From a virus, in IMG/VR virus record IMGVR_UViG_3300001589_000190, positions 1 through 23,301 of that record: 23,301 nt of DNA; one strand, 5' to 3'. A model generated the notes under the pieces. The model made no database searches, was not told where the DNA came from, and saw only the letters and a list, made by a program, of their open reading frames with translations. Shown here one piece after another: positions 16,764 through 22,233 of the stretch. Every line of letters begins with the position of its first letter. Within the stretch, counting starts at the first letter, position 1. The translations under genes and the position numbers were made by a program.

Positions 16764-17815
16764 ACAGACAACGACTCCATATACAAATCACGAATCATTA
16801 ATTTTAACTTAGTCTTCTGCTCTTCGTTTAGTTCTTTCATATCATTTACTTCATTAGATATGATCGAAACAGTATCCAAAGATAGATCAACATCCTCTTC
16901 TAGCCCATCTTCGTCACCGTAGTCTTCTACTACTGTCACGTTAGATACTGGTACATCATACAGGTTGTCTAAGAATCTGTCAAACAAATATGGTTTAGTT
17001 TTGTTGTCAACGAACAACTTAACATAGGCATTTTTATATTCACTGAATGGGAATTTGCCGATGTCAAAGTTTTGGCTATCATCATATGAGATCTTGAAGA
17101 ACTTCTTTCTCGGGTTCTCGATAAACTCTAAGTCTCGCGTCTCTGTGTCAAATACATGAAAGCCTTTTCTATCATTTAGATCACTAAAGGTAATCTGATA
17201 CTGCGTACCAAGATACGTCACGTTGTTCTGGACACTACGGCTGTGGAAGTGACCAGACAGAACCATGTCAAATCTCCTCAGACATTCGTCAGACATCCCA
17301 CCATCGAACGGCAGTCCTCTCATCACCTCGTAACCATTCAGTTCAAAGTGACCACAGATAATGTTACTCTTCGTGTTCTTTAGATACTCTAAAGTCTTCT
17401 CACGATTCTCGCTGTTTACCCACGGAACCATACCAACTTTTACGCCATCAAATTCTAGATCGACAGGTTGCTGATATATAAAGAAGTTCGAGTAACGATC
17501 ACCGAACAACTCATTAACAGAATTCAAATCGTTAGTGTTCTTATAGAACGTATCGTGATTACCTACAATACAATGAACAGTAATACCTTCACGAAGAAAA
17601 GGCTCCATGAACTGGTTACGAACACTGTTCAGTGTATTGAAGTTGACAAACTTTCGTCTGTCCATAAGATCACCTAAATGAAGAACAGTATCAATGTTGT
17701 TCTTCTTCAGGTATGGAAAAAACTGTTCACGAAAAAAGTCCGTGAAGTAATCTATAAATATTTGACTATCTGATCTTGCGCCCCAATGGGTATCATTTAT
17801 TATTGCTATCTTCAT
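16760..17815 (-). CDS. 47: Recombination nuclease subunit gp47 (Mre11/SbcD-like)
   Basis: The 351-residue protein is a calcineurin-like phosphoesterase with all metal motifs: NDTHWG (D8, H10), LGDLMDRR (47-54), VGNHD (84-88), CGHFE (154-158) and SGHFHSR (187-193). The C-terminal part is acidic (DYGDEDGLEEDVDLSLD) and probably carries the gp46-binding region. It provides the endo/exonuclease activity of the gp46/47 complex. GAGG lies six bases upstream of the ATG. The gene starts inside the last 23 bases of gene 55 and is coupled to gene 46 by ATGA. Confidence 0.96.
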   Translation of the reverse strand: MKIAIINDTHWGARSDSQIFIDYFTDFFREQFFPYLKKNNIDTVLHLGDLMDRRKFVNFNTLNSVRNQFMEPFLREGITVHCIVGNHDTFYKNTNDLNSVNELFGDRYSNFFIYQQPVDLEFDGVKVGMVPWVNSENREKTLEYLKNTKSNIICGHFELNGYEVMRGLPFDGGMSDECLRRFDMVLSGHFHSRSVQNNVTYLGTQYQITFSDLNDRKGFHVFDTETRDLEFIENPRKKFFKISYDDSQNFDIGKFPFSEYKNAYVKLFVDNKTKPYLFDRFLDNLYDVPVSNVTVVEDYGDEDGLEEDVDLSLDTVSIISNEVNDMKELNEEQKTKLKLMIRDLYMESLSV

Positions 17816-18365
17816 TTACATCCTCAAAACATGAAGTCAAGCCGGCTTGAGTTTTCTTCTTACTCTTTTTAGGCTCAAACTTCTTTAAGTCATTATCATT
17901 TAACTGAAAGAAATCTTTCATTGCTTGATCTGGATTCTTGTCAAAGTAGTTCTCCTTGAACCACTTATGAATATGTCCACCATGATCACCTTCTTCGATC
18001 ATCTTAAACTTAACGTATGACTGCTTCTTTTCTTTCTCAATACGCCTAAGAAAGGCATAGTAAATAATTTGTGTAAAATATGAGAAAGGATTCTTTGACT
18101 TTTCTGGATTGAAATTATGTGCATATAATATACAGTTCTCAATTGCATCTCCAATCATTTCTTCAACAAAAGGATAGTTCATAAAGTTAGGTTTAAGGGC
18201 AAGATTAGTTGCAATCTTGATAAAGCATTCCCCAATATACTCTGTCATTGGAGGTTTTGGATCACCATTACTTTCTGCAAGAACTACTTTTTCTTTCCAC
18301 TCAGACATTTTCACGAAGAACAATTTGTTATCGATATAATGATTTGTACTTTTCTTCTTGGCCAT
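17793..18365 (-). CDS. 55: Late-transcription sigma factor gp55
   Basis: The 190-residue protein matches T4 gp55 in length (185) and in its sigma region 2-like core: EEMIGDAIENCILYAHNFNPEK...NPFSYFTQIIYYAFLRRIEKEKKQ, where aromatic residues of the promoter-melting helix are evident. gp55 directs host RNA polymerase to late promoters of TATAAATA type and, in T4, needs the gp45 clamp and gp33. No gp33 gene is evident in this window. The C-terminus (LTSCFEDVNEDSNNK) mixes hydrophobic and acidic residues, as expected for a clamp-contact tail, but I cannot assign it firmly. It is the first gene after the divergent promoter region, with GGA eight bases before the ATG. Confidence 0.92.
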   Translation of the reverse strand: MAKKKSTNHYIDNKLFFVKMSEWKEKVVLAESNGDPKPPMTEYIGECFIKIATNLALKPNFMNYPFVEEMIGDAIENCILYAHNFNPEKSKNPFSYFTQIIYYAFLRRIEKEKKQSYVKFKMIEEGDHGGHIHKWFKENYFDKNPDQAMKDFFQLNDNDLKKFEPKKSKKKTQAGLTSCFEDVNEDSNNK

Positions 18366-18385: not shown

Positions 18386-18413
18386 ACTATACACTCGATT
18401 TAGTTTTTGTCAA
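18386..18413 (-). promoter_or_regulatory. Sigma70-type promoter for gene 55 and downstream operon
   Basis: On the minus strand TTGACA (18413-18408) and TATAGT (18391-18386) are separated by 16 bp, giving one mismatch to consensus. Transcription would begin about 20 bp before the gp55 ATG at 18365. It lies in the largest intergenic gap of the window and is positioned for early expression of the 55-47-46 replication block by unmodified host polymerase. Confidence 0.75.
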
Positions 18414-18427
18414 GTTTATCCTTGACA
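18408..18427. repeat. 7-bp inverted repeat joining the two -35 boxes
   Basis: TGTCAAG (18408-18414) and CTTGACA (18421-18427) are perfect inverted copies separated by TTTATC. Each arm contains the -35 hexamer of one of the two divergent promoters, which are thus only eight bases apart. It may be an operator that controls both, or simply the mirror image of two consensus -35 sites. Confidence 0.8.
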
Positions 18428-18449
18428 GTTTTGGGTTTACCCATATAAT
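18422..18449 (+). promoter_or_regulatory. Divergent perfect-consensus sigma70-type promoter, antisense to HNH gene
   Basis: On the plus strand TTGACA (18422-18427) and TATAAT (18444-18449) are separated by 16 bp, both hexamers perfect. The spacer holds a small inverted repeat, TGGG-TTTA-CCCA (18432-18443). No convincing plus-strand gene follows: transcription from about 18456 would run through the 3' end of the HNH gene in antisense. It could make a regulatory or antisense RNA, or be a chance match. Confidence 0.55.
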
Positions 18450-18496
18450 TTCACTTGTGAAGACGAAAAAGAAACCCTCTAGAAACACCGGATATA

Positions 18497-19015
18497 CTAG
18501 GTGGGAGGGATCCAACGATCCCACAACTTCAACAATTCGACAGTGACTGCGGCTAACTGCATTTCTAAGTGTTTTGGTTTTCTTGGTTTACTAAGAAGAG
18601 GCATGTTACATTCTTTAGGTTTCTTATTTCCTTTTTTAGAATTACAAGGTGCGCAAGAAGTTGTCAAATTCGTCCAAGAAGAATCTCCGCCTCTAGATCT
18701 AGGTGTTACATGATCGATTGTAAGGTTCTTACTATTTTTTGTTTTTATTCCACAGTATTGACAAGTCCATTTATCTCTTTTGAAAATATTCTTCCTAGTA
18801 GGTAAGTGGGATTGATGTGGACTCAAAACATATCTAAGTAAAATTAAAGCGACTGGTAATGGATATGTGCCTTTAGGTGTCTTGATTTTATATGTTTTCG
18901 AGAATGAATAAGGCTGAACAGCCTTCCCAGACTCTACCAGAGCAACTGCTTTTTTCCAATCGATTACATTTAATACTTCTTCAGAAGCGTTGAGGAGCAA
19001 GACTTCTTTATCCAT
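18497..19015 (-). CDS. HNH endonuclease
   Basis: The 172-residue protein has a typical HNH nuclease core: WTCQYCG (C85, C88), TIDHVTPRSRGG (D101, H102), W-T-N at 116 and CAPCNSKKGN (C121, C124, N125), with the two CxxC pairs forming the structural zinc site. Residues 1-70 (VLLLNASEEVLNVIDWKKAV) form the N-terminal region usual in stand-alone phage and bacterial HNH proteins of this type. It cuts DNA; it may be a homing endonuclease or a packaging- or recombination-related nuclease. GGAG sits five bases before the ATG. It is flanked by small gaps on both sides, consistent with a free-standing insertion between the Sm-like gene and gene 55. Confidence 0.9.
   Translation of the reverse strand: MDKEVLLLNASEEVLNVIDWKKAVALVESGKAVQPYSFSKTYKIKTPKGTYPLPVALILLRYVLSPHQSHLPTRKNIFKRDKWTCQYCGIKTKNSKNLTIDHVTPRSRGGDSSWTNLTTSCAPCNSKKGNKKPKECNMPLLSKPRKPKHLEMQLAAVTVELLKLWDRWIPPT
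18507..18522. repeat. Perfect 6-bp hairpin at the 3' end of the HNH gene
   Basis: GGGATC-CAAC-GATCCC forms a 6-bp stem with a 4-base loop inside the last codons of the HNH gene. There is no T-run after it on either strand, so I do not call it an intrinsic terminator. A transcript from the plus-strand promoter would carry it about 50 bases from its 5' end. Confidence 0.5.
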
Positions 19016-19027
19016 TTGGTCTCCAAA

Positions 19028-19735
19028 TTATTTGAGATAGTCGTCGATATCCGAACTCCAATCAGTCAGTCTATTGCCAAAGTCTGGGTGAGTCTTATCA
19101 TCCCCAGTGTATTCTTCTGATATTTTTTCTGAGTTCATGTTCTCGAATAAAAACTCAGACATCTGATCAGGTTTAATAATACCCTGATCTAACATTTTCT
19201 TGAGCATCTCGGGTGGAATCATTAGAGTCATTACAATAAACTCTTGCATCTCATCATCGTCTAAATCATCAAGTCCATCTACACCATCAAGTTGATCTGC
19301 CAATTCGTCATACATCTTCTTCATGGCATCATCTACGTTTTTGTTTACATCAAATAAATCACTTAACGGATTCTTTGGTGGAGTTGAATTTGGATTTGTC
19401 TCATCATCGTAGTTTATTACGCTTCTCTTCTTTTTAAGTTCTTCCTCTCTCTTCTTTTCTATGGTGTAGAGTTTTTCTGTTTCCCCTGTGGGGTTTAGAA
19501 ACGCAAGAATACTCTCTTGCTGAATTGTAATCTCATCACCATCAGCAAACGCAGTCCAACTCTGAAGCATGGTAACATCTTTCTTCATGCCGCTCATTGG
19601 ATCGATTACTGATTGTGTTCTGAATAAGAAGGGTTTCTGTAGAGTCAATTTCTTTCGATCTGACTTTACTATCTTTGCTATCACATCATCTCCATTTTTC
19701 AATCGGATGATTCTGCTCGTAATCTCATCAGTCAT
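19028..19735 (-). CDS. Unknown acidic protein with Sm-like N-terminus
   Basis: The 235-residue protein opens with a short beta-rich segment, SRIIRLKNGDDVIAKIV followed by KKLTLQKPFLF, like the Sm1 motif of LSm/Hfq-type folds. After about residue 85 come a charged helix (EKKREEELKKKR), a linker, and an acidic helical tail (GVDGLDDLDDDEMQEFIV...PPEMLKKMLDQG). No catalytic motif is seen. ATG 19735 is preferred over ATG 19741 because AAGGAG (19742-19747) is six bases from the former and directly abuts the latter. It follows uvsW in a tight operon. An RNA- or protein-binding role is only a suggestion from the N-terminal fold. Confidence 0.72.
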   Translation of the reverse strand: MTDEITSRIIRLKNGDDVIAKIVKSDRKKLTLQKPFLFRTQSVIDPMSGMKKDVTMLQSWTAFADGDEITIQQESILAFLNPTGETEKLYTIEKKREEELKKKRSVINYDDETNPNSTPPKNPLSDLFDVNKNVDDAMKKMYDELADQLDGVDGLDDLDDDEMQEFIVMTLMIPPEMLKKMLDQGIIKPDQMSEFLFENMNSEKISEEYTGDDKTHPDFGNRLTDWSSDIDDYLK

Positions 19736-19737
19736 AA

Positions 19738-21237
19738 TCATCTCCTTATATGAATTTTCGATATCTCATAATCAAACTTCTCATTAGTATATATTTTGAT
19801 TCTCTCTCCAAGATGTCGGAAAGTATGATTTTCGTATTTTCCTATGGAGAGATCATCTGAAAGATCAAACAACTTTACTTTCTGTTTCCTATCTGATTTT
19901 CTTAGTCCTCTGCCTATACTTTGAAGAACTCTTACAACAGATTTAGAAGGGCTAGCGAAAACAATGTTATCAATATTCCTAATATTAATGCCAGTAGAGC
20001 AGGTTCCGTAAGACGCGACCAGAACCGAGTTAGTTTTCCTATCAACGATCTTGCGAATCTCTTCCCGTTGTATGACATCTGTTGCTCCGTGTATGAGGAA
20101 AGTCTCTTTATCTCCTTGACTAATCAATTCATACAACGGTTTCCCGTGCTTCTCCACATAGTTGAAGAGGACTAGAGTATTACCCTTTAACCTGTTGGTT
20201 AGTTCGGCAATAAACTGGTTTCTCTTTTCATGAGTAACAATCCATTCTATTTCATCCTGATATTTTTTTCTCTTCATAAACTCCTTCTCGTCTTTAGTAT
20301 ACTGCAACGTAAGGCAGTTAATACTTAAAGTTGAGAGAAGTTTCTTATCCATTAAGTTCTTGGTTGTCGTAACCTGAAACACTCTACCAAAGAGTCCTTC
20401 GATTACGAGTTTGTGTGTCTGTGTTCCGTCGAGTGTGCCTGTAGTTCCTATTCGATAGTAGCAGTCATCTAGATTCGACATTAGAGTCGATAGTGATTTG
20501 GCTTTAAATAAGTGGCATTCATCACCAAACACACAACCGAATTTTGAAAAATATTCTTTTGGCATTTGATACAAACTCTGCCAAGTTGATATAATAATTC
20601 TCTTATCTGTTTCTTTCGACTGACCACTGAATACTTGATGGCAGTTGGACATACAATCCCAATCATCATTCGATGAGTAGTCTTTGAAGTCTTCAAGCAT
20701 CTGTGATACAAGACCTGTGGTTGGAACAATAATCAACAACTTCTTATCTGGGGGCAGCACTTCCATATAGTAACGCATTAGAGTATAGATGATCAGCGAC
20801 TTCCCAGACGCAGTAGGAGACAGCAGGAGACATCTCTTGGTATTCAATGCGTGCTGAATAGCATTCACTTGATGTAAGTGTGGTTTAATTGCTTTATTAT
20901 TTGCTACGATGGACAGAGAGTCAATAAACTCCGTAACGTCGCTCTGAGAGAACTCTGAGGACGGTAGAGAGTCCTTCAGCGTTTCCTCTAACTGGATAGT
21001 ATATTTTCTATCCTTAGCGAACTGAATGACGTAATCCAGTAAACCTCGGTAGATAGTCTGCTTGTATAGGTTGAATAATTTGATAGTGCCGTCCCACTGC
21101 TTCTTTTTATAAGCAGGACTGAACTCATGATTTGGCACTTTGAACGTGAAGAAGTCAGATAACTCTTTTGCTATCCACCTTTCACAATCCAATTTTACAT
21201 ATACGGAATCTAAATGTAGAACAGAAATATCACTCAT
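19738..21237 (-). CDS. uvsW: UvsW helicase (SF2)
   Basis: The 499-residue protein follows T4 UvsW closely: an N-terminal domain with VKLDCE...LSDFFTF...KKKQWDG, then Walker A SPTASGKS (140-147), IIVPTTGLVSQM, motif II GDECH (238-242), a TGTLDG motif III and the C-terminal VASYGTCSTGINIRNI and QSIGRGLRK motif VI. UvsW unwinds R-loops and branched DNA, shutting off origin-dependent replication in favour of recombination-dependent replication. No clear Shine-Dalgarno precedes the ATG, so translation may depend on coupling with uvsY, which ends 16 bases upstream. Intact and of normal length. Confidence 0.96.
   Translation of the reverse strand: MSDISVLHLDSVYVKLDCERWIAKELSDFFTFKVPNHEFSPAYKKKQWDGTIKLFNLYKQTIYRGLLDYVIQFAKDRKYTIQLEETLKDSLPSSEFSQSDVTEFIDSLSIVANNKAIKPHLHQVNAIQHALNTKRCLLLSPTASGKSLIIYTLMRYYMEVLPPDKKLLIIVPTTGLVSQMLEDFKDYSSNDDWDCMSNCHQVFSGQSKETDKRIIISTWQSLYQMPKEYFSKFGCVFGDECHLFKAKSLSTLMSNLDDCYYRIGTTGTLDGTQTHKLVIEGLFGRVFQVTTTKNLMDKKLLSTLSINCLTLQYTKDEKEFMKRKKYQDEIEWIVTHEKRNQFIAELTNRLKGNTLVLFNYVEKHGKPLYELISQGDKETFLIHGATDVIQREEIRKIVDRKTNSVLVASYGTCSTGINIRNIDNIVFASPSKSVVRVLQSIGRGLRKSDRKQKVKLFDLSDDLSIGKYENHTFRHLGERIKIYTNEKFDYEISKIHIRR
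19742..19747 (-). promoter_or_regulatory. Shine-Dalgarno that decides the start of the Sm-like gene
   Basis: AAGGAG touches the ATG that overlaps the uvsW stop (zero spacing) but is six bases from the next in-frame ATG at 19735. The second ATG is therefore the probable start, even though the first shows the ATGA overlap common in this genome. Confidence 0.7.
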
Positions 21238-21253
21238 ACACTATATGTATGAG

Positions 21254-21688
21254 TTATCCGCCGTTAGAAAATTTAGCCCAGTCGATTGCAGATCGAATAT
21301 ACCACTGTCGGTTGTTGATGATCTTTACTACCCCTTCGAGATACTTGACCTTTTCTTCCTGTAGGGCAAGACGATGGGACTGGATGATCAGTTCACGATC
21401 AGATTCAATGAACTGATCAGTATCAGCACGAAGAACATTGAGAGGAAACGGCTCCCAGTTTCTTTGCTTTAGTTCTTCATCGCCCATCTTACCAGTGTAA
21501 TATAGCCACTTATCTTTGCGGAGTGTCTTATACTCTGCCTGCATCTTCTTAAACAACAACGTCTCATCCGTGAATAAGATAAGATACTTATTGTGAAGTT
21601 GGGGTGTTTTGATGGACTCGATATCCAATTCGGTTCGATCCATCTCTAGGTCTTTGCTGACCATCTCACGAATATCATTCAGGTTCAT
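21254..21688 (-). CDS. uvsY: Recombination mediator UvsY
   Basis: The 144-residue helical protein fits UvsY (137 in T4) in length, charge and position next to uvsW. Recognisable parts are the N-terminal LNDIREMVSKDLEMD, the central KYLILFTDETLLFKKMQAEYKTLRKDKWLYYTGKM and the C-terminal EEKVKYLEGVVKIINNRQWYIRSAIDW. UvsY forms hexamers that load UvsX recombinase onto gp32-covered single-stranded DNA; neither partner gene is in this window. The ATG overlaps the stop of the tail-tube-like gene by four bases. Confidence 0.93.
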   Translation of the reverse strand: MNLNDIREMVSKDLEMDRTELDIESIKTPQLHNKYLILFTDETLLFKKMQAEYKTLRKDKWLYYTGKMGDEELKQRNWEPFPLNVLRADTDQFIESDRELIIQSHRLALQEEKVKYLEGVVKIINNRQWYIRSAIDWAKFSNGG

Positions 21689-22196: not shown

Positions 22197-22233
22197 ATAT
22201 AAAAAAACACAGCCCCCCATGAGGAGGGCTGTG
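22197..22233 (-). terminator. Intrinsic terminator after gene 23
   Basis: Read on the minus strand, CACAGCCCTCC and GGGGGGCTGTG form an 11-bp stem (one U-G pair) around a TCAT loop, followed directly by a run of seven T. It begins 25 bp after the gp23 stop. It should end the abundant capsid transcript before the tail-tube-like/uvsY/uvsW genes. Confidence 0.93.

Follow-up and report, generated by a model that had tools for sequence, protein, structure and literature searches.

A conserved early-type promoter facing away from gp55 at the late/early border of T4-like phage genomes

Judged by its conservation, the plus-strand element upstream of gp55 in a 23.3-kb fragment of a T4-like myovirus (the whole stretch of DNA that was analysed, hereafter the window) is a genuine promoter of the early (host sigma70-like) type and is anciently conserved. 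It faces away from gp55, its -35 box adjoins or overlaps that of the gp55 promoter, and in the annotated gene order it separates the late block (...gp23, uvsY, uvsW, gene X) from the early replication operon (gp55-47-46...). The minus strand of the window carries gp23, a gp19-like gene, uvsY, uvsW, gene X, an HNH gene, gp55, gp47, and gp46, with a gap of 131 nt between the gp55 start (18365) and the stop of the HNH gene (18497) (Table 1). The two back-to-back promoters of a preliminary description proved right to the base in both coordinates and sequence, and their -35 boxes do lie 8 bases apart within a 7-bp perfect inverted repeat. Its remark that the plus promoter points the "wrong" way also holds: the annotated genes nearby are all on the minus strand, and the promoter points into the HNH gene, gene X, and uvsW from their downstream ends. 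This orientation fits a cis-antisense RNA opposite the annotated genes, transcription itself being predicted, and the proposal that a real plus-strand promoter could give an antisense or regulatory RNA is supported by the conservation of the promoter.

Table 1. Positions of the promoters, associated sequence elements, and neighbouring genes (window coordinates unless another phage is named)
Feature	Position	Strand	Details
Antisense (divergent) sigma70-type early promoter, facing away from gp55	18422..18449	+	TTGACA-N16-TATAAT; -35 at 18422-18427, 16-nt spacer, -10 at 18444-18449; conserved in relatives
gp55 (sense) sigma70-type promoter	18386..18413	-	TTGACA-N16-TATAGT; -35 at 18413-18408, 16-nt spacer, -10 at 18391-18386; placed to drive gp55
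7-bp inverted repeat, coinciding with the two -35 boxes	18408..18427	.	TGTCAAG (18408-18414)-N6-CTTGACA (18421-18427)
Dyad directly after the plus -10	18450..18461	+	TTCAC-TT-GTGAA; arms change together between lineages
TGT at the predicted antisense RNA start	18456-18458	+	Within the dyad
gp55, late-transcription sigma factor	17793..18365	-	First gene of the early replication operon; phrog_234, E 3e-55
Free-standing HNH endonuclease gene	18497..19015	-	Between gene X and the promoter pair; PF01844 HNH, phrog_16726
Gene X, conserved neighbour, function not known	19028..19741	-	phrog_471/431
uvsW helicase	19738..21237	-	End of the late block under the proposed antisense RNA; PF21241 UvsW_N, phrog_16
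Predicted antisense start, phage Syn9	near 123.7 kb		TAGAATAACACTGTCAGGG

Conservation and genomic position of the antisense promoter

The window region gave no megablast match to phage records, so relatives were gathered through protein searches. About 400 gp55 loci were taken from viral contigs, and those with distinct sequences over the 330 bp ahead of the gene, 198 in all, were kept as dereplicated representatives. Each locus was scored by its best promoter within 230 bp upstream of gp55, with a cut-off of at least 10 and dinucleotide shuffles as the control. An antisense promoter was present in 90% of the 198 loci versus 2.3% of shuffles, and a sense promoter in 68% versus 2.2%. These loci are kin and their counts are not independent; the more cautious figure is that for gp55 clusters at 70% identity, 12 of 14 of which have the antisense promoter in the majority of members. 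In the closest relatives of the window the -35 and -10 hexamers are unchanged while the spacer is altered, and both hexamers persist across distant lineages, so that the conservation of the plus -10 that had been named as a check was indeed observed. It is this conservation, rather than the single match in the window, that excludes chance: TTGACA and TATAAT-like hexamers 16 to 18 nt apart, as in a sigma70-type promoter, recur well beyond the random expectation.

Promoters of this orientation are otherwise rare. In a position-weight matrix scan of the window (strong match, score of at least 11), the plus promoter was the sole strong match on its strand. Across the gp55 loci, strong antisense matches occurred at 3.65 per kb at the gp55-upstream site versus 0.017 per kb elsewhere (16 in 933 kb of the same loci), where forward promoters reached 0.177 per kb. 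The complete 190-kb genome of Synechococcus phage SynMITS9220M01 has 4 strong minus-strand versus 30 plus-strand promoters, and the gp55 antisense promoter is one of the four. A second strong divergent pair was seen in the early region of this genome (MT408532, 49670 on the minus and 49746 on the plus strand), in a 517-nt gap. The strongest promoter of the whole window is a perfect consensus (TTGACA-17-TATAAT, 21762-21734, minus strand) 46 nt upstream of uvsY.

The antisense promoter was found in the cyanophage isolates Syn9, ACG-2014b, S-CAM3, and S-SSM7, as well as in Pelagibacter phage HTVC008M and Sinorhizobium phage phiM7. Stenotrophomonas phage DLP6 has it with a weaker -35, and the Melnitz group carries a degenerate form in which the -35 boxes have decayed. 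It is absent from T2, where gp55 is not adjacent to uvsW and has other neighbours. Its occurrence follows the gene order, since in the 191 loci with uvsW at most 2 kb upstream of gp55 the antisense promoter was present 177 times. One further locus (L231) is instructive in this respect. There, gene X and gp55 are separated by mazG and uvsX, and the divergent pair (antisense TTGACA-17-TATAAT, forward TTGACA-17-TATTAT) immediately follows gene X, at a distance of 1.7 kb from gp55. That the pair stays at the gene X end indicates an element that demarcates the late block from the early operon.

The HNH gene, under which the plus promoter was originally described, does not account for it. An HNH gene adjoins gp55 in only 5 of the 198 representatives, all in the close group of the window, whereas the promoter occurs in nearly all loci. 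This confinement points to a later insertion that was not the reason for the promoter, and an HNH-linked explanation, of the kind known for CfrI or I-TevI autorepression, is ruled out by the occurrence of the promoter without the gene.

The -35 region and the predicted start site

Both promoters are present in 141 loci, and in 87 of these the two -35 boxes are merged into one common TTGTCAA; elsewhere the geometry varies, with an 8-bp gap in the window and crossed boxes in Syn9. With the -35 regions overlapping or shared, both promoters can hardly be occupied simultaneously, and the pair thus behaves, on paper, as a bidirectional promoter whose opposed halves are too close for simultaneous binding. 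The inverted repeat looks like two -35 boxes written in opposite directions. It had been suggested to be an operator for both promoters, but its geometry varies freely and it is missing wherever the sense promoter is missing. The repeat follows from the two opposed boxes, none of the data point to an operator, and we have rejected that interpretation as improbable.

Conceivably, the antisense promoter is a functionless by-product of the symmetry of a strong promoter. A common TTGTCAA would make such symmetry easy, and bidirectional promoters are common in bacteria (PMC12825309). In 42 loci, however, most of them from a freshwater group whose antisense -35 overlaps the start codon of gp55, the antisense promoter is kept without a recognisable sense promoter, and it is thus not a by-product of the latter. 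A near-consensus -35, -10, and start site maintained over very divergent phages, together with the rarity of antisense promoters elsewhere in these genomes, also speak against functionless divergent transcription, which we consider very unlikely.

The sequence just downstream of the antisense -10 is itself conserved. Of the 183 conserved antisense promoters, 97% have a TGT at either of two neighbouring positions, where the RNA is expected to start, and in cyanophages, where the first ~20 nt downstream of the promoter are far more conserved than the remainder, the start consensus is AAC-N2-TGT-N2/3-GGGTT. In many lineages the TGT lies in a dyad whose arms vary yet stay complementary: TTCAC/GTGAA in the window, TCGAC/GTCGA in L004, AACAG/CTGTT, AGGCA/TGCCT in HTVC008M, CAGGA/TCCTG in phiM7, and TCAGG/CCTGA in DLP6. 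The freshwater group has kept the TGT and not the dyad. This conserved dyad lies at the predicted plus start (18450-18461), a place that the preliminary description did not mention, and not at the -35 repeat. Stems of at least 5 pairs with G-T allowed occur in 75% of cyanophages versus 17% of shuffles, and permitting A-C adds nothing over strict pairing. Tolerance of G-T and not of A-C suggests that the dyad folds on the strand of the antisense RNA. Column-shuffle tests of single pairs gave mixed results, the register shifting between sequences. Despite the G-T pattern, a hairpin within the antisense RNA was set aside, because the 5' arm of the dyad lies upstream of the expected start.

A conserved TGT and a covarying dyad around the start would also be expected of a protein-binding or structural element that merely resembles a promoter, such as an operator or the end of a late mRNA. 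What is conserved, however, is a correctly spaced TTGACA-N16/17-TANAAT with a free third position in the -10, as expected for sigma70, and the same arrangement drives ordinary genes elsewhere, which makes a non-promoter element improbable to much the same degree as mere promoter symmetry. The combination of TGT and dyad was in fact seen ahead of a few ordinary genes, for instance at MT408532 36828, upstream of a phrog_1653 gene.

A possible antisense RNA over gene X and uvsW

From the position and direction of the promoter we infer the production, length, and effect of an antisense RNA. Early in infection, host polymerase would make an untranslated RNA from the plus promoter that runs backwards over gene X (in the window first over the HNH gene) towards uvsW. 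By collision and/or pairing, this transcript would oppose the transcription and expression of gene X and uvsW, while competition of the antisense promoter with the gp55 promoter, through their overlapping or shared -35 region, would limit gp55. The R-loop helicase UvsW might in this way be kept off while origin R-loops are needed, and the late sigma factor might be delayed, until late transcription takes over and the block is lifted. Our tentative reading, which we hold to be quite possible, if somewhat short of probable, is that early transcription antisense to gene X and uvsW keeps the late block quiet at that stage and competes with the gp55 promoter.

The rationale comes from T4, where a late promoter drives the synthesis of UvsW and the helicase unwinds the R-loops of origins (PMC3016281), so that an early appearance of the protein would have to be avoided. 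Consistent with this, 36 of the 119 loci tested have an ATAAATA late-promoter motif immediately upstream of uvsW. About 8% of uvsW starts, including those of the whole window group, carry a start-codon hairpin, which likewise counts for the mechanism; start-codon sequestration is known from the T4 genes e, soc, 49, and I-TevI (PMC3014915). In the window this is a 10-bp hairpin (ACTCATACAT-ATA-GTGTATGAGT, 21232-21254, minus strand, -11.6 kcal/mol, z -2.8) that encloses the uvsW start codon, and in a related cyanophage-type locus (L094) a similar hairpin overlaps the ATAAATA motif. On the other side, gene X and not uvsW is the first gene covered, and the start-site TGT and dyad are left unexplained. 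The E. coli bidirectional promoters tested so far are too weak for real competition (PMC12825309), and the degenerate -35 boxes of the Melnitz group also count against the mechanism. Intrinsic terminators speak against it as well, being scarce on the antisense strand (10 in 388 kb from 156 loci) and placed, in four loci, so as to cut the transcript off ahead of uvsW.

The latter four loci (L282, L300, L302, and L330) have a perfect antisense hairpin with a T-run 364-447 nt from the gp55 anchor (some 280-410 nt as counted from the anchor side). These hairpins lie inside the gene X region and are readable only as terminators of an antisense RNA, which would there stop short of uvsW; a general terminator of the antisense RNA was rejected given the low overall count. 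On the opposite strand of the window, a strong intrinsic terminator (11-bp stem plus T-run, 22208-22233) directly follows gp23 and separates it from the next late gene.

Possibly, the product is instead a short regulatory RNA that acts in trans or on gene X only, with the conserved start (TGT, dyad, and a GGGTT-like sequence) belonging to the RNA or to its control. The four perfect terminators and the conservation of the first ~20 nt well beyond the rest in cyanophages would suit such an RNA. Most loci, however, lack a terminator, the start sequence differs between lineages, and the 5' arm of the dyad, being upstream of the expected start, could not be part of the RNA. Likewise, no described structured RNA family was recognised at the site, Rfam giving no match in the window and none above threshold in ten relatives, and we regard a small RNA as unlikely. 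In the window, the predicted RNA fold of the initial 111 nt is unremarkable (z = -1.5). A small plus-strand protein was also considered and set aside, as the aligned antisense strands, inspected over their first 75 nt, revealed no conserved start codon or frame. The Rfam searches did return a sub-threshold match to the ROSE thermometer (34.1 bits, gathering cut-off 43) in a locus of phage Melnitz-3 (L082, 11447-11509, plus strand), directly upstream of an Hsp20 gene.

An antisense transcript could also prime replication, the border being an origin similar to T4 oriF or oriE with an R-loop formed from an early promoter. Each genome region has a single element of this sort next to its replication genes; T4 oriE needs an early promoter and oriF transcription of the uvsY region (PMC3016281), and the G-richness of the initial 50 nt of the transcript (skew +0.30) would favour R-loops. 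On the other hand, the A+T-rich unwinding stretch that a T4-type origin has downstream of its promoter was not seen across 152 loci (AT 0.67 versus about 0.66 around, with a flat profile), iterons or other repeats were not found in the window, and SynMITS9220M01 has no GC-skew switch at the site, so that we judge an origin to be quite unlikely. Distinctly unlikely, too, is that the whole constitutes a dedicated border element, tied to the order uvsW-X-55, in which one -35 serves both directions and a backward RNA times the switch from early to late, possibly also priming the first round of replication. This last proposal would take in the covarying start-site dyad and the invariant TGT as parts of the backward arm.

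Relation to known systems and significance

The element belongs to kinds already known, namely, bidirectional promoters (PMC12825309) and phage antisense RNAs such as CfrI (PMC2984593). As in the bacterial bidirectional promoters described for E. coli, one DNA stretch would take polymerase in two orientations, with mutually exclusive binding and divergent RNAs. The E. coli promoters described in PMC12825309 and in the 2021 work cited there share a symmetrical -10 flanked by the starts, whereas the phage element has two separate -10s and an overlapping, shared, or adjacent -35. Moreover, unlike in E. coli, the backward promoter of the phages is conserved even without the forward one.

CfrI, an antisense RNA of cyanophage S-PM2 directed against a homing-endonuclease gene (Millard 2010, as summarized in PMC2984593), resembles the present case in coming from a T4-like marine phage and in lying antisense to a homing-endonuclease gene; here the RNA is predicted from its promoter. 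According to the same summary, CfrI is located at psbA, which it connects with the endonuclease gene. In contrast, the element described here is at gp55/uvsW, is nearly universal in its group, and occurs independently of the HNH gene, which only the window group has. The T4 origins oriF and oriE (PMC3016281) are similar in that a promoter drives an RNA near uvsY/uvsW or against late genes, in oriE from an early promoter, but the unwinding element, iterons, and skew switch sought at the gp55 border were not found there. The early promoters of T4-like cyanophages have the form TTGACA-N17-TATAAT and are recognised by unmodified host polymerase (PMC2984593); the gp55 antisense promoter differs from these ordinary promoters in pointing away from all genes, and of the 30 ordinary early promoters of SynMITS9220M01 roughly 3 have the start TGT that 97% of the antisense promoters carry. 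We found no earlier report of the element in the open full-text literature, although the Syn9 transcriptome or CfrI papers may mention it. Published annotations of these genomes list promoters by intergenic position only (PMC3037559, PMC9004378). The present case is a warning for phage annotation that "wrong-way" or non-intergenic promoters should not be dropped, as happens in pipelines that keep only promoters upstream of genes.

In conclusion, an antisense RNA that matters is probably made beside gp55, to judge from the conservation of its promoter, and strand-specific RNA-seq data that already exist for infected Synechococcus should reveal its start. The T4-like phages of the sea, which rank among the most abundant viruses, lack MotA and AsiA, and the timing of their gene expression is an open question (PMC2984593). 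Hence, a wrong-way promoter long kept exactly where the late block meets the operon of the late sigma factor offers a concrete, testable candidate for part of the early/middle/late timing in these phages.
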